Assembly (NCBI GenBank): GCA_024400995.1
Contig: JAKSLU010000006.1
Coordinates: 1-45,024, forward strand
Origin: Bacteroidaceae bacterium
GTDB taxonomy: Bacteria; Bacteroidota; Bacteroidia; Bacteroidales; Bacteroidaceae
DNA length: 45,024 nt
Direction: 5' to 3'
Positions 3,798-44,195 of the stretch are shown piece after piece. A program made the position numbers and the translations under genes. Numbering within the stretch: the first letter of the stretch is position 1; each line of letters opens with the position of its first letter. The notes beneath the pieces were generated by a model that did not search any database, had not been told where the DNA came from, and worked only from the letters and a program-made list of their open reading frames with translations.

Positions 3798-3969
3798 TGT
3801 CCAATATTGTGCACCTGTGCACTAAGGATATATAACTCTCATATAGACAGTGAGATATGTAGTGTATAGACTATACACACTATGCACAACTATACATCCA
3901 GAAAAACTATTGTAGGGACTACGACACACTACACTATACACTACGACACGCTATACTATACACTACGAA
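3798..3969 (+). repeat. composite intergenic repeat, copy 1
   Basis: Three modules occur in order. First is a 28-base motif with the dyad GTGCAC-C-TGTGCAC (3798-3825). Second is the palindrome GTGTATAG-A-CTATACAC (3862-3878). Third are two perfectly abutting 22-bp units, 3918-3939 and 3940-3961, each starting ACTACGACAC and ending CTATAC, followed by a partial third unit ACTACGA. The same modules in the same order occur at 20910-21216. No open reading frame is present. Confidence 0.75.
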
Positions 3970-4007
3970 CAACAAGACCTAGATGACTTGTTCATAAACG
4001 TAAATGA

Positions 4008-10130: not shown

Positions 10131-10217
10131 GCGTTAAGGAAATAACGCATGTGTTTTTCATAGTATTAGATTTAAGGTTAACAAGGTTGGGATGCAGTGA
10201 TGCATCCCATCTTTTTT
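10131..10217 (+). ncRNA. candidate small RNA upstream of rimP
   Basis: A promoter box (10119-10126) and a strong intrinsic terminator (10189-10217) bracket about 87 bases with no convincing reading frame. The 5' end forms a hairpin, GCGTTA (10131-10136) with TAACGC (10143-10148). A single-stranded A/U-rich linker of about 40 bases follows, and the transcript ends in the GGGATGCA/TGCATCCC hairpin plus six T residues. I do not recognise an Rfam family. It could also be an attenuated leader, but a second promoter downstream (10281-10312) serves rimP separately. Confidence 0.5.
10189..10217 (+). terminator. terminator of candidate small RNA
   Basis: A perfect 8-bp stem GGGATGCA/TGCATCCC with loop GTGA is followed by ATC and TTTTTT. 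This is a strong rho-independent terminator. Confidence 0.8.
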
Positions 10218-10236
10218 GTACCCCTACATGCACAAT

Positions 10237-15691: not shown

Positions 15692-15733
15692 CACTACCCC
15701 CTGCACTACGATGCCGTAGTGCAGGGGGTAGTG
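15692..15733. terminator. 19-bp perfect stem-loop between luxS and priA
   Basis: Bases 15692-15710 are the exact reverse complement of 15715-15733, with a 4-nt loop ATGC. It lies between two convergent genes and should act as a bidirectional terminator, although neither side has a clear T tract. The left arm contains ACTCACTACCC-type sequence also found in the intergenic element at 21201-21211. Confidence 0.65.
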
Positions 15734-20864: not shown

Positions 20865-20909
20865 CAAGAGGTGGCCTTGTTCGGACTGAAACTCCTCCCA
20901 GAATACTTT

Positions 20910-21216
20910 TGTCCAAAACCGTGCACTTGTGCACTAATGCGTGCAACCATCAGATAGACAACGCTTTACGCAGTGTACAGCCAAACATTTTTGTACACTA
21001 ACTCTGCAATACTCTGCATATAGAGAGTGTACAGCAGTGTACAATAGTGTACAAAAATGTACGGCCCAAACACTGCGTAACGTATTGTAACGCAGTTTGT
21101 TATACCCGCTTTGTGCTCAGTGCACAAGTTTGGGCAAAACTGTTATAGCGAGTACGGCTCACCAACCTATATACTACGGCTCACTACACCGTACACTACG
21201 ACTCACTACCCTATAC
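20910..21216 (+). repeat. composite intergenic repeat, copy 2
   Basis: It has the same module order as 3798-3969. The 28-base dyad motif (20910-20937) matches copy 1 at 24 of 28 positions and contains GTGCAC-T-TGTGCAC. AGTGTACA boxes and their inverses follow (20972-21062). A shorter inverted copy of the dyad motif is at about 21117-21138. Three abutting 22-bp units, 21151-21172, 21173-21194 and 21195-21216, close the block; the last two start ACTACG. The last unit matches a copy-1 unit at 20 of 22 positions. Confidence 0.75.
21026..21065 (+). repeat. four AGTGTACA boxes at exact 10-bp spacing
   Basis: AGTGTACA begins at 21026, 21036 and 21046, and a variant AATGTACG at 21056. TGTACA is itself palindromic. 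The spacing puts every box on the same face of the helix, as in cooperative protein-binding arrays. Further copies occur at 20972 and, inverted, near 20992. Confidence 0.6.
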
Positions 21217-21361
21217 TCTGCAGACGACTGCGCACGTAAAGCGAGATGCGCCTTAGCGCCTTGGCGGGAATAAATCCTAGTCTCCTGATAGCGAAAACTG
21301 TGTCAATCCTAGTCTCTATCTGTGGTATGGAGCATTTCCAGCTACTTTTACAAGACAACAA
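21217..21361. other. gap 3' of the membrane-protein gene
   Basis: No gene is visible. A 12-bp direct repeat AATCCTAGTCTC occurs at 21273-21284 and 21305-21316, 32 bp apart. No convincing terminator for the minus-strand gene at 21362 was found. Confidence 0.35.
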
Positions 21362-23807: not shown

Positions 23808-23856
23808 GGTTTATGGTTTAAGGTTTAATGTTTAATGTTTAATGTTTAATGTTGAG
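23808..23856. repeat. 7-bp-period array (TGTTTAA) between nfeD-like and flotillin
   Basis: Seven exact 7-bp steps read, on the plus strand, GGTTTAT, GGTTTAA, GGTTTAA, three TGTTTAA and TGTTGAG. The array starts two bases from the flotillin start codon and fills most of the gap, so it lies in the flotillin untranslated leader. Confidence 0.8.
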
Positions 23857-24668: not shown

Positions 24669-27308
24669 ATGAAACTCCGCACCCTTACCCTTGCCTTCGT
24701 TCTGGCGGTAGCTGGGCTGTTGGCAATGGCGCACGAAGGAGTGACCATCACCTTCAAGGATGGTACCAGCGCCACAATCTCTCTCTCGCAAATCACAGCT
24801 CTCGCATTCAGTGAGACAACCCTGACGGTCGAGGGAACTGACCTGCACTATCAGCTGAGTGACATCGACCACATTGCCTTCGGTAACGAGGGCGACCAGT
24901 CGCAGGAGACGACACAGTGGACCATCCAGTGGGATGGACAGAACGCTACTGTCAGCGGGCAGCACAGCGGTGTGACGGTGACCAACGCCAATGGCATCGT
25001 CACCATTGACAACACGAACACAAGCGATGAGTTCACCTACACCCTGCAAGGCACTGGCACTGGTGCCTTTGTCCTGAAGGGTGACTACAAGGCCACCATC
25101 GTTCTCAACGGCCTGCAGCTCACAGGCACTGGCTATGGCGAGGCTCTCGACATCAAGGTGGGCAAGCGCGTAGCCCTCACTCTCCAGGAGGGAACGACCA
25201 ACACCCTGGCCGATGCCACTGAGGATCTCGGACAGAAGGCCGCCCTCTACTGCAAGGGCCATCTGGAGGTGGGCGGCGCAGGTGCACTGAGTCTTACTGG
25301 CAACATCAAGCATGCCCTCTCTACCAAGGAGTACCTGCAACTCAAGAAGACCACAGGTTCCATCACCGTAGTGAGTGCGGCCAACGACGGCTTCCATGCC
25401 GGACAGTACTACCAGCAGAATGGCGGCTCCGTGACCATCAGCAAGGTGGGCGGCGATGGCATTCAGGCTGAGGCTACAGGCGATGAGACCAAGGAGCAGG
25501 ACGGCCAGATGATCATCAAGGACGGCGTCCTCAATATCACCACCACTGCTACTGACGTGGCTGCGCTGAAGAGCGACTCGCTGATGACGCTGAGCGGTGG
25601 CACCTACACCCTTACCACCAGCGGAGCAGGCAACAAGGCCATCAAGTCCAAGCAGGAACTCAACATCACGGGCGGTGAGTACACCATCCAGCAGAGCGGC
25701 AAAGCCTGCATAGAGAACGGTGACCTGGGCTACGTGACGGCCCTCAAGGGAACTGACGTCACGGTGAGTGGCGGCAAGTTTACCATCACCACCAGCGGTG
25801 CAGGAGCCCGTGGCATCAGCGCTGGCAATCTCTGGGTGAGCGATGAGGCCGACATCAAGATAACCAATACCGGTGCAGCCGGCACCGCCAGCGATGCCGT
25901 GGAGGTGACCTCCGAGCCTGACCCCGAGCCCGAGGTGGAACAGAAGAGCTACAAGGTCTATGTCAACGTGCCCACCTCCACCAGCGGTGGCGGACGCCCC
26001 GGACAGCAGACCAACAGCGTGTGGTCGAGCGTGTATCTCTACAAGAGCGACGGCACACAGGTCGCCACGCTCAGCCTGCAGGTCACGGTGAACGGCACTA
26101 CCTTCTACTGCTACGACTTTGGCAAGGCAGACACGGGCACTTACTACTTTGGGGCTCCCAACTATAGTAGCGGCGGTTTTGGCGGCGGCACGTCCTATAC
26201 GATCAAGAGTGGCACCTTCAGCGGTCCCACCTCTGGTAAGGACTACTTCTACCAAGTATCCTCCAGCTACTCCACCAGCGGCACGACCCGCACGTACTCC
26301 ATCAGCAATGTGACCTCACAGTATGAGGGCGGAACGATAGGCGGTGTAGCCACCAGCGATGCCTTTACGGCCAAGGGCCTGAAGGTGGACAGCGATGCAC
26401 ACCTGCTGGGCGGCACCATCAATATCAGCATGAGCGGTGCTGGAGGCAAGGGCATCAAGGTAGAAGGCAACTACATCCAAGGCACGGAGGACGGCAACGG
26501 CCCCACTCTGACCATCGCTACCACAGGCAGCAAGTACGGCAGTACAGGTGGCTCTACAGGCGGCTTTGGCGGTCGCCCCGGCGAGGACAGCAGTGGCTCC
26601 TCCGCCAAGGGTATCAAGGTGCAGGGCACCGTGGTCATCTATGGCGGACAGACCGAAGTTTCTACTGCCACCGACGGTGCCGAGGGTCTGGAAAGTAAGG
26701 TCAAAGCCGAAGGCTCCATCCGCATACTGGGCGGCAAGCACTACTTCAAGTGCTACGATGACTGCATCAACTCCGCTGGCGGCATCAGCTTTGATGGCGG
26801 CGTGACGGTATGCTATTCCACTGGCAACGATGCCGTCGATTCCAACTACGGCAAGGCAGGTGCTCTAGAGATTGGTAACGGCGCCCTACTCTCCTACACC
26901 ACCAAGGGCGGTGCAGAGATGGGCTTTGACTGCGACGGCTACAACTATGTCCGTATTACAGGCAACGGCATCTGCATCACGGCTGGCGGCAACCAGGGGG
27001 GCAGCAGTTCCAGCAGTTTCGCCTCTGCTGTGCAGGGCTACTATATCGGTGGTTCGGTGAGCTACTCCGCAGGACGCTACTACACTTTAGCCGATGCTTC
27101 GGGCAATAATTTGGTAACTTACTCGTTTGAAGGAAACGTAAGCAGCTCCTCCAGCGTATTTACCGCCACAGGCATGAAGTCTGGCAGCTCCTACAACGTG
27201 AAGTACTCCACCACCGCACCCACCGATGCCACCACCGCCTGGCATGGACTTTACCTCGGCTCCACTGCCGTTGGCACCACAAACACGACAAGCTTTACAG
27301 CCCGTTAA
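24669..27308 (+). CDS. secreted Cthe_2159-like carbohydrate-binding beta-helix protein
   Basis: The 879-residue exported protein has a signal peptide (about 1-21, cleaved near AMA-HEG). An N-terminal module follows with ITFKDGTSATISLSQITALAF and YQLSDIDHIAFG, a pattern seen at the start of many Bacteroidales surface proteins. The rest is rich in Gly, Thr and Ser with recurring rung-like motifs (SGGTYTLTTSGAGNKAIKS, SGGKFTITTSGAGARGIS, LGGTINISMSGAGGKGIKV). These match the Cthe_2159/DUF4353 parallel beta-helix family, members of which bind acidic plant polysaccharides. An insertion near 410-555 contains a separate beta-domain. No type IX sorting module is visible at the end. The ligand is unknown. 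Confidence 0.8.
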   Translation: MKLRTLTLAFVLAVAGLLAMAHEGVTITFKDGTSATISLSQITALAFSETTLTVEGTDLHYQLSDIDHIAFGNEGDQSQETTQWTIQWDGQNATVSGQHSGVTVTNANGIVTIDNTNTSDEFTYTLQGTGTGAFVLKGDYKATIVLNGLQLTGTGYGEALDIKVGKRVALTLQEGTTNTLADATEDLGQKAALYCKGHLEVGGAGALSLTGNIKHALSTKEYLQLKKTTGSITVVSAANDGFHAGQYYQQNGGSVTISKVGGDGIQAEATGDETKEQDGQMIIKDGVLNITTTATDVAALKSDSLMTLSGGTYTLTTSGAGNKAIKSKQELNITGGEYTIQQSGKACIENGDLGYVTALKGTDVTVSGGKFTITTSGAGARGISAGNLWVSDEADIKITNTGAAGTASDAVEVTSEPDPEPEVEQKSYKVYVNVPTSTSGGGRPGQQTNSVWSSVYLYKSDGTQVATLSLQVTVNGTTFYCYDFGKADTGTYYFGAPNYSSGGFGGGTSYTIKSGTFSGPTSGKDYFYQVSSSYSTSGTTRTYSISNVTSQYEGGTIGGVATSDAFTAKGLKVDSDAHLLGGTINISMSGAGGKGIKVEGNYIQGTEDGNGPTLTIATTGSKYGSTGGSTGGFGGRPGEDSSGSSAKGIKVQGTVVIYGGQTEVSTATDGAEGLESKVKAEGSIRILGGKHYFKCYDDCINSAGGISFDGGVTVCYSTGNDAVDSNYGKAGALEIGNGALLSYTTKGGAEMGFDCDGYNYVRITGNGICITAGGNQGGSSSSSFASAVQGYYIGGSVSYSAGRYYTLADASGNNLVTYSFEGNVSSSSSVFTATGMKSGSSYNVKYSTTAPTDATTAWHGLYLGSTAVGTTNTTSFTAR

Positions 27309-27348
27309 ACCATAAGCTATAAACCATAAACCACACACTATAAACCTC
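27307..27348. repeat. 7-bp-period array (AAACCAT) at a stop codon
   Basis: Six exact 7-bp steps, AAACCAT, AAGCTAT, AAACCAT, AAACCAC, ACACTAT and AAACCTC. The first step overlaps the stop codon of the beta-helix gene. Confidence 0.75.
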
Positions 27349-30054: not shown

Positions 30055-30061
30055 ATCGTTT

Positions 30062-30096
30062 CTTATTTGTTATTTCTTATTTATTATTTATTATTT
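30062..30096. repeat. 7-bp-period array (NTTATTT) upstream of M18 gene
   Basis: Five exact 7-bp steps, CTTATTT, GTTATTT, CTTATTT, ATTATTT and ATTATTT. The array begins eight bases upstream of the M18 aminopeptidase start codon. Confidence 0.75.
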
Positions 30097-30448: not shown

Positions 30449-30461
30449 AGGTTTGTAAGAG

Positions 30462-30493
30462 GTTAAATGTTTAATGTATAATGTTTAATGTTT
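30462..30493. repeat. 7-bp-period array (GTTTAAT) in the rpsO leader
   Basis: Steps GTTAAAT, GTTTAAT, GTATAAT and GTTTAAT, then a partial GTTT. It lies between the rpsO promoter and start codon. The word is the same as in the array at 23808-23856. Confidence 0.75.
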
Positions 30494-42401: not shown

Positions 42402-44084
42402 ATGAACAGAATACTTTTGGCAGTAATATGCCTCACAATATGGTCTAGCCATGCTATGGCCGACATAGCCCCAGAGCAAAGGATGGACAGCCTGACCAAG
42501 GCATTCCTGGCGGAGTGCGGCGGACAGATGCCTCGTGGCATTGAGATCAATGCAGACAGCACCCGACTGCAAATCAACCTCGCTGAGTTTATAGCCCATC
42601 CTGCGGCCAAGCGATACTTTGAGCAGATGGGCAAGATCGTCATGACCCAGAGGGCGATGCACTCACAGATGAAGATTGAGATCAAGGACATACTGCTAGA
42701 GAAGCTGGCTCTCACTAGCAATGACGCACAGAGTCTGAGACGCAAGGCGGTGTCCATTCCGCAGATCACATCGACTACCCGCATTCCCTATACCTACATG
42801 AGCGTTGACGCGCGCAACAACCCCGTGCGCCTCTCCTCTGTGATGTATCGCCCCAGTCCGTTCCAGACCACCTATGTGTCGGAGATGGGTGCAAACAACT
42901 TTCTCATACTACCAGGCTTGGCAGCACTACTCATTGATGGCGTCAAGGGCCTGTGGAATGCAGCCTTTGGCTACACGATTGACTATGGTGTGCTGTCGTG
43001 CCACCCCACTGTGACATCAACAGCAGAGGCTCCCTCTGGCTCTATGCCCACGGACGAGGACGTCAAGATGTTCTGCTCCGACTACGCCCTAGTGGTGTGT
43101 CCCGACTACTGCGGTTACGGCCTGTCCTCCTATCGTCAGCACCCCTATCTGGTACAGGGCGTGACGGCGCGCAATGTGGTAGATGGCTATCTTGCCGCTC
43201 TCGACATTGCCAAGGACGTCAAGATTTCGGGCTCGGACAACTGGTCGCTGGCCGAGGGATTTTATACCAACATCATGGGCTACTCACAAGGCGGCAGCGT
43301 CGCACTGGCCACACTGCGCTATATGGAGAGTGGACAGGTGTCGGCAGAGGACCTCAAGCGCATCAACCTGCGCCACACCTACTGCGGCGATGGCCCCTAC
43401 TCTCCCCTGGCCACCGTCAATCAGTATGTGGAGTGGGCCAACTCCAGCAATCCCAGGTATAGCAACCTTGCCTACCCATGCGTGATTCCTCTCATCATCC
43501 AGGCAGCCAAGGATGCCTATGACAACGACTGCATGCGCTCCGTGCGGCTGGAGGACTACTTCACGCCTGAGTTTCTGGCCACTGGCATACTGGACGCCCT
43601 GGATAGCAAGTCCATCACCACGACCATGCTTAATGCCAAAAGCGCTGAAGCCCATACTACCACTCTCGACCGGATAATGAGCGACAAAATCATCCAGCGA
43701 AATGCCGAGACGGGACTCATCGAGATCAACGCCCAGAGCAACGAGTACAAGTGTCTGGCGCGCGCGCTCGGCTACAATGATCTCTCCCAGGGCTGGACTC
43801 CACAGCACCCAGTGCTCTTCATGCACTATGACGATGACCTCGTCGTGCCCTACTGCAACCTGCTGGCCATGAAGGAGGCCATGGCGGGGGCGACTACACC
43901 CACAGCATTCATCACCCCCCACGAGGCTCTGGACCTGATGAAGCAGGACGAGGGCGGACTGTGGCAGTATGCCGAGACTCTGGTCAAGAAAACGCTGGAG
44001 AACCCCGACCACGTCTCAGTGGGCACCTTCTTCTACATGGCTGCAGCATCGGGCGTACTGGACAAGCTGCTCTCTGGCAAATAG
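42402..44084 (+). CDS. secreted alpha/beta hydrolase (lipase/esterase-like)
   Basis: The 560-residue protein has a signal peptide (MNRILLAVICLTIWSSHAMA). Its alpha/beta-hydrolase core shows VVCPDYCGYGLSS, a nucleophile elbow GYSQGG with Ser295, a probable catalytic Asp in LFMHYDDDLVVPY, and a late His in ITPHEAL. The layout resembles secretory lipases, but the substrate cannot be read from sequence. It starts nine bases after the BspA-like gene and is probably co-expressed with it. It has no visible C-terminal sorting module. Confidence 0.82.
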   Translation: MNRILLAVICLTIWSSHAMADIAPEQRMDSLTKAFLAECGGQMPRGIEINADSTRLQINLAEFIAHPAAKRYFEQMGKIVMTQRAMHSQMKIEIKDILLEKLALTSNDAQSLRRKAVSIPQITSTTRIPYTYMSVDARNNPVRLSSVMYRPSPFQTTYVSEMGANNFLILPGLAALLIDGVKGLWNAAFGYTIDYGVLSCHPTVTSTAEAPSGSMPTDEDVKMFCSDYALVVCPDYCGYGLSSYRQHPYLVQGVTARNVVDGYLAALDIAKDVKISGSDNWSLAEGFYTNIMGYSQGGSVALATLRYMESGQVSAEDLKRINLRHTYCGDGPYSPLATVNQYVEWANSSNPRYSNLAYPCVIPLIIQAAKDAYDNDCMRSVRLEDYFTPEFLATGILDALDSKSITTTMLNAKSAEAHTTTLDRIMSDKIIQRNAETGLIEINAQSNEYKCLARALGYNDLSQGWTPQHPVLFMHYDDDLVVPYCNLLAMKEAMAGATTPTAFITPHEALDLMKQDEGGLWQYAETLVKKTLENPDHVSVGTFFYMAAASGVLDKLLSGK

Positions 44085-44095
44085 TGGCCCTATAG

Positions 44096-44163
44096 ACCAC
44101 GGCACACTAGTCTATACACGAGATTTTCCTTGTCTATACACTAATTATTCTTAGACTATACAC
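44096..44163 (+). repeat. 22-bp-period repeat, copy 3 (degenerate)
   Basis: Unit 44096-44117 matches a unit of copy 1 at 18 of 22 positions. The next two 22-bp steps (44118-44139, 44140-44161) keep only the AC start and the TCTATAC or ACTATAC end. CTATACAC therefore recurs at 44112, 44134 and 44156, exactly 22 bp apart. It lies 3' of the hydrolase gene. Confidence 0.7.
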
Positions 44164-44195
44164 AAGTTTTCCCTATCCAATATGCCACGAAATAC

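Follow-up and report, generated by a model that had tools for sequence, protein, structure and literature searches.

The window analysed here is the whole of contig C56, a stretch of 45,024 bases from a 1.53-Mb genome (G000) that is 68% complete. Units of a 22-bp repeat lie in it after porW/sprE, in the gap between luxS and priA, after dacB, and beyond a gene at 42402-44084 (Table 1). An earlier note, made from the letters of this stretch, called the last of these genes a hydrolase, but no Pfam or NCBIfam family matched it.

Table 1. Parts of the repeat loci in the window, with positions counted from its first base
Feature	Position	Strand	Remarks
GTGCAC dyad, left end of MITE-like element	3798..3825	+	24/28 letters common with 20910-20937
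GTGCAC MITE, probably a shortened or decayed copy	3798..3907	+	Flank alignment with 21119-21160; right end set by eye; no strong fold
Single inverted, weaker 22-bp unit	3854..3875	-	12/14 fixed letters
22-bp array of three units, after porW/sprE	3906..3971	+	Includes, in another frame, the pair of the earlier note, 3918-3961
Two weak 22-bp units in opposite orientations, luxS-priA gap	15693..15732	+	11/14 fixed letters each
Hairpin MITE	20902..21144	+	Inverted ends 20902-20927 and 21119-21144, plus inverted inner arms
22-bp array of three units, after dacB	21161..21226	+	Immediately outside the MITE
22-bp array of one good and two decayed units	44106..44167	+	

The earlier note read the loci after porW/sprE and dacB as one composite element, in which a GTGCAC dyad, boxes of the type AGTGTAYA and abutting 22-bp units follow each other in a fixed order. 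Several parts of this description agree with the present analysis. The abutting units at 3918-3939 and 3940-3961 agree at 20/22 letters, and the two GTGCAC motifs are as alike as had been reported. Likewise, 22-bp units are present after dacB (about 21151-21216), and a third copy with decayed neighbours in the same phase is found at 44096-44167. The fragments described from the luxS-priA gap proved to include two weak units, placed as in Table 1. The boxes do not form a single module common to both loci: those at 20970-21062 are inner arms of the hairpin MITE, and the one at 3854-3875 is the 22-bp unit in a weaker, inverted copy.

The supposed composite is thus a pair of families that are frequently neighbours, namely a hairpin MITE whose ends carry GTGCAC, and the 22-bp array. 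Their order is alike at both window loci (MITE end, interior, array), but it does not define one composite element genome-wide. Among the 118 flanks of 59 G000 arrays, counted on two sides, 28 have a homologous neighbour in register, and these neighbours are of several unrelated kinds.

Copies and anatomy of the unit

The repeat had also been proposed to be a dispersed non-coding family with many copies. A genome-wide search supports this, since copies were found far above reversed controls, and they are neither few nor at chance level. In G000, the single-unit pattern with 2 mismatches occurs at 44 places and the extended unit with 3 mismatches at 95, each against 0 for the reversed control. 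The general core ACTANNCTATACACTA, with 2 mismatches allowed, occurs at 197 places against 9.

Of 58 genus genomes, two have a pattern of two adjacent units at 22 bp, namely G000 with 74 places and G002 with 79; the reversed control had 0 matches in all 58. G002 matches Candidatus Equimonas faecalis. The 13 stretches with the unit among the named genome contigs scanned all belong to Candidatus Equimonas faecalis. The two-unit pattern was absent from 184 sampled genomes of 24 other genera. In the corresponding draw of 201 family genomes (G000, 16 of the same genus and these 184, with G002 not drawn) it was found in G000 only. Scanned viral contigs gave 0 matches to the unit, and neither a plasmid search with the dacB locus nor a phage search with the porW/sprE locus gave a match.

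The G000 array set comprises 59 arrays with 187 units. It was taken from 60 fetched stretches (305,603 bases) plus the window, and omits listed sites on C4, C24, C43, C45:3522, C71, C77 and C78. G002 contributed 43 arrays; GTGCACNTGTGCAC occurs 0 times in 254,665 nt of its stretches.

The step from one unit to the next is 22 in 91/128 cases in G000 and in 103/114 in G002. Most other steps are 18 or 26, and arise when the half-palindromic unit is called on the opposite strand. The units abut every 22 bp and their linkers are similar within an array, in agreement with the earlier statement that there is no spacer structure. The unique spacers that separate the repeats of a CRISPR array are therefore not found here.

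Within the unit, the core is kept better than the linker. In G000, core and linker identity are 0.86 and 0.57 between adjacent units, and 0.80 and 0.34 between units of different arrays. To allow for the selection on the core in the search, the comparison was repeated with 22-mers next to strong units, whatever their score. The difference remains, with 0.73 against 0.51 in G000 and 0.81 against 0.62 in G002. Adjacent units are also more alike than random ones (0.73 versus 0.63 in G000; 0.82 versus 0.68 in G002).

The unit is partly palindromic, and the folding of arrays overall is somewhat better than that of shuffles, with a mean z of about -1.5 to -2.4. Mirror positions in G000 and G002 units show no Watson-Crick covariation, and positions 7 and 12 favour C-C. 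Thus, a base-paired hairpin of RNA or DNA is not what is kept in these two genomes, and a reading of their units as hairpins or terminators is unsupported.

MITE and IS-like neighbours

The GTGCAC element fits the description of a MITE: it is short, occurs in multiple copies, has inverted terminal repeats and contains no gene. The copy at 20902-21144 has inverted pairs of 26, 21 and 19 nt, which are 77%, 90% and 84% complementary. When 20905-21220 is folded as RNA, z is -7.73, better than all 100 shuffles. The locus after porW/sprE folds no better than shuffles (z -1.55), so that it holds at most a MITE remnant. The end motif was found at 30 places in G000, against 0 in the control, several of those with three mismatches being plainly accidental. 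Paired inverted ends, 150-230 bp apart, occur at five more places in the genome (C1:37181, C17:835, C23:41997, C28:16666 and C30:15403).

The neighbours of arrays are MITE ends, IS-like ends, and further 22-bp units with other cores (TAGTCGGCAACTA, TAGTCCTAGGACTA). In one group of G000 flanks (group A), which are mosaic arrays, an outer TAGT...ACTA frame is kept across consecutive 22-bp units while the centre changes. The centres recur in the order CGGCAA/CGSCG, then CCTAGG, then STATAS.

The IS-like repeat has 30-nt hairpin ends, GAGG[GA]TGTGCCAGCATTTTGACACACCCTC. All 22 ends in G000 (L164-L185) lie within 63 bp of a contig edge, and because they break off there, the full element and its transposase are not in the assembly. 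In 8 of the 22 cases a 22-bp unit lies within 65 bp. This proximity is unlikely under null rates of 1-10%, which were assumed and on which the p values rest. IS-like ends beside arrays suggest that the arrays are insertion hot spots at which assemblies break. The arrays themselves contained no transposase, as the earlier note had said.

The arrays belong to a known kind of sequence, the dispersed intergenic tandem repeats. An example from the same bacterial order is BrickBuilt, a MITE of Porphyromonas gingivalis with 23-nt tandem repeats and 19 copies (PMC4596501, here and below as far as the part of the text drawn on describes it). Like the arrays, BrickBuilt has imperfect tandem repeats of similar length that are intergenic and dispersed, have no spacers, lie beside MITE-like sequence, and are confined to one species and a close relative (PMC4596501). 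Its repeats are enclosed by a leader and a tail with IS5-type ends, GAGACC (PMC4596501). The arrays share its intergenic position, but their unit is 22 rather than 23 nt, and they lie outside a GTGCAC-type MITE instead of inside an element with GAGACC-type ends. The same source mentions earlier work on 22-nt tandem direct repeats in P. gingivalis W83. These have the same unit length and also belong to the Bacteroidales; the likeness is one of length alone, as that part of PMC4596501 does not give their sequence, location or dispersal.

Another known system is that of REP or BIME-type palindromes, which would be moved by a REP-associated Y1 transposase (RAYT). In the part of PMC3733652 drawn on here, REPs are short, dispersed, species-specific intergenic repeats, often grouped, which carry GTAG or CGTC tags and form stem-loops at variable spacing. 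The arrays are likewise intergenic, dispersed, species-specific and partly palindromic; three Y1 genes are present in G002 and four in another genome, G032, and IS-like ends lie near arrays. Unlike REPs, the arrays have a fixed 22-bp step, and neither a covarying, conserved stem-loop nor a unit at Y1 genes was found. The three Y1 loci of G002 are flanked by other repeats, with no strong unit (at most 10/14 letters). Furthermore, G032 lacks the 22-bp unit despite its four Y1 genes, and 5 of the 10 genomes searched have no Y1 match, while G000, at 68% completeness, has one below the cut-off. Movement by a RAYT is disfavoured by the other repeats at the Y1 loci, and its probability is judged to be very small indeed.

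A period of 21 or 22 bp in other genomes

The reversed-pattern control matched G017 at 12 places. This genome has 22-bp arrays of another palindrome, ATCAYTATARTGAT plus a linker, which occurs at 15 places. G008 is a weaker such case, with 9 places of which several are accidental. Because of these cases, the intergenic DNA of other genomes was scanned for any tandem period. Lags from 13 to 45 were covered, with called genes, low complexity and shorter periods masked.

The blind set from the genus consists of 46 stretches from 25 genomes (903 kb, of which 183 kb are intergenic), taken without knowing whether repeats lay in them. Lag 21 has 47 matches in this set and lag 22 has 16, which makes 63 in total. 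Other lags have at most 4 (0 at 19 and 20, 4 at 23, 1 at 24, 4 at 13), and the sole higher ones are the doublings 42 (10) and 44 (5). A first count (976 kb, with 59 matches at lag 21 and 16 at 22) included four stretches with known repeats, L303, L304, L316 and L373, which were dropped. A further 80 kb from genomes already known to have arrays is kept outside the blind count.

In 20 stretches, one from each of 20 genomes of other genera (351 kb, 66 kb intergenic), lag 22 has 11 matches and lag 21 has 1, while no other lag exceeds 3. At least one match at 21 or 22 bp was found in 19/25 blind genus genomes and in 7/20 genomes of other genera. In the remaining 6/25 and 13/20, the sampled stretch has no array.

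As a control, 200 kb of E. coli K-12 gave one match at lag 21, inside the annotated gene gfcA, and one at 18. In 1.23 Mb of coding DNA from the genomes sampled, matches were spread over multiples of 3, with 21 the highest (16) and only 2 at lag 22. It is therefore unlikely that the peak comes from leaked protein repeats, above all for 22.

Although the period is common, the letters mostly are not. Units are common to the loci of one genome and to the pairs G000-G002, G017-G023, G003-G007 and, weakly, G008-G017, but otherwise not. The threshold for sharing was 0.72 identity, and 99.9% of shuffled comparisons fall below 0.67. Palindromy exceeds that of shuffles in 14/64, 5/13, 8/15 and 15/110 loci of the different groups, where 5% are expected, and is not general.

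Gene neighbourhoods and a possible role

All arrays of G000 (59) and G002 (43) are located in gaps between called genes or at the ends of contigs, and overlap called open reading frames by at most 17 bp (outside E. coli, genes were called with a codon-usage script of our own). The rule given in the earlier note, that the element sits at gene 3' ends, does not hold. G000 has no strand preference: oriented arrays face a co-directional downstream gene in 23/41 cases (p 0.53) and lie behind a co-directional upstream gene in 28/44 (p 0.10). In G002, 37 of the 38 oriented arrays face the start of the next gene (p 2.8e-10).

The two genomes also differ in the gaps that the arrays occupy. The 46 G000 arrays with both neighbours called lie in 15 convergent, 25 tandem and 6 divergent gaps. 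The 43 G002 arrays lie in 18 gaps of the form '<<', 14 '<>', 7 '>>' and 3 '><', with 1 open. The ratio of convergent to divergent gaps is thus 15:6 versus 3:14 (p 0.001). Across the genus, the gaps that contain arrays are tandem in 33 cases, convergent in 17 and divergent in 9; for array-free gaps the counts are 122, 31 and 28. This is a slight convergent excess (17/59 versus 31/181, p 0.06).

Such an excess, together with the one in G000, is what might be seen if the arrays acted at the RNA level, as tandem hairpins, terminators or processing sites at transcript ends. The somewhat better folding of arrays fits as well, as do some units of other species, which by eye are palindromes followed by T runs. 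Against an RNA element stand the missing covariation of mirror positions and the C-C preference at 7 and 12. G002 arrays, moreover, avoid convergent gaps (3 of the 42 with two neighbours), no Rfam family matched at the arrays, and a transcript offers no reason for a period of 21-22 bp. An action at the RNA level is therefore improbable.

The motif TANNTTTG, which is taken here to be the Bacteroidetes -7 promoter element, was sought between arrays and starts of co-directional genes 40-400 bp downstream. It is present in 15/17 cases in G000, with 0 in the reversed control, and in 8/26 cases in G002, with 1 in the control. The arrays might also be promoter repeats of variable copy number (contingency loci), in which expression is tuned by gain and loss of 22-bp units. 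Up to 6 similar units face gene starts in G002, and units are homogenised locally. In G000, however, neighbouring units differ at about a quarter of their letters, and one genome per species was compared. Tuning by copy number is judged very unlikely.

Mycobacterial MIRU and VNTR minisatellites are tandem, intergenic and oriented with genes, and have units longer than 22 bp. In orientation they resemble the G002 arrays, but they differ in their longer units and are not known to have a period that is common to several species while the letters change.

Most array places differ between G000 and G002. There are 13 array pairs with any common gene within three neighbours, which by a rough estimate is about the number expected by chance. 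One clear shared place lies upstream of pheS (G000 C5:33655, G002 C3:45413). The four scanned genes downstream of G002 arrays, namely pheS, a BatD-like gene, endonuclease I and a WYL regulator, have no common theme. At the first window locus, an orthologue of dxs was matched in 52/58 genus genomes; among 30 loci fetched for the porW-dxs gap, 22-bp units are upstream of it in the window's own locus only. This gap is no clean empty site in G002, because the upstream neighbour differs there (by eye).

The explanation preferred here, with a probability of roughly 0.42, is that the 22-bp arrays are rows of candidate protein-binding sites and belong to a wider class in the Bacteroidaceae. In this model, a sequence-specific DNA site, made of the core ACTANNCTATASACTA and a loose 6-bp linker, would be repeated in short arrays between genes, and each array would be a row of putative binding sites for a dimeric DNA-binding protein. 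With one site per 22 bp, or about two helical turns, all sites would lie on the same helix face. That the period corresponds to two helical turns while the letters change between species points to DNA geometry, and hence suggests sites bound on one side of the helix. The protein may act in cis, either on genes nearby or on the local shape of the DNA. Arrays would grow by local duplication; MITEs and the IS-like element often lie beside them. The arrays of G000 and G002 would be the version that two sister species have of the wider class with a period of 21 or 22 bp. Besides the period found in many species, the model draws on the better-kept core, the missing covariation of mirror positions, the orientation of the G002 arrays and the promoter motif in 15/17 G000 cases. 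The family, its period, core and intergenic placement, the G002 orientation and the period in other species are observed, whereas the protein, its action in cis and the way arrays come to new loci are inferred.

Several results speak against binding sites. The orientation rule of G002 is absent in G000, the promoter motif accompanies under a third of the G002 cases (8/26), and array positions mostly differ between the two genomes. Palindromy exceeds shuffles in a minority of loci in most groups, and the genomes whose sampled stretch has no array count here as well.

Another explanation is that the arrays are minisatellites that are functionless or tolerated, expanded by replication slippage and spread in intergenic DNA with MITE and IS elements, as is thought for BrickBuilt. 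MITE and IS-like ends abut arrays, and the 8 of 22 IS-like ends near a unit, the turnover of positions, the greater likeness of adjacent units and the lack of a strand preference in G000 would all fit such an origin. It is a real possibility, if short of an even chance. Minisatellites of this sort do not predict one period of 21-22 bp with different letters across many species, a core that is kept better than its linker, or the 37 of 38 G002 arrays that face gene starts.

The binding-site reading can be extended, tentatively, to an undescribed class in the Bacteroidaceae in which the period is fixed at 21 or 22 bp and the sequence of an often palindromic site changes from one species to the next. 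Such a pattern might come from a DNA-binding factor and its dispersed site arrays that evolve rapidly as a pair. No report of 21/22-bp arrays as a family-wide class was found in the open-access literature, mostly at the level of titles and the beginnings of abstracts. If the class is real, common gut bacteria would often carry a non-coding feature that is invisible to gene annotation. A period kept while the letters change would indicate that DNA geometry is constrained and not the sequence, and would give the search for the responsible protein a concrete starting point.

Other repeats and an RNA gene were observed along the way. The small Y1 transposase genes of G002 and G032 (L262, L263, L267-L271) are flanked by inverted repeats of other sequences, for example ones similar to GCTGGCTTCCAGCCAG, which by eye are of REP type. 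In the window, heptad repeats (GGTTTAA and similar, also with periods of 14 and 21 bp) lie mostly in intergenic DNA at 23808-23853, 27306-27346, 30059-30096 and 30454-30493; they were taken out of the 21/22 counts as a different kind. The sole match in an Rfam scan of the window, at 10151-10220 on the + strand, is FopS (RF04319), a Bacteroidetes family of paralogous sRNAs, with 75.4 bits against a gathering score of 56.
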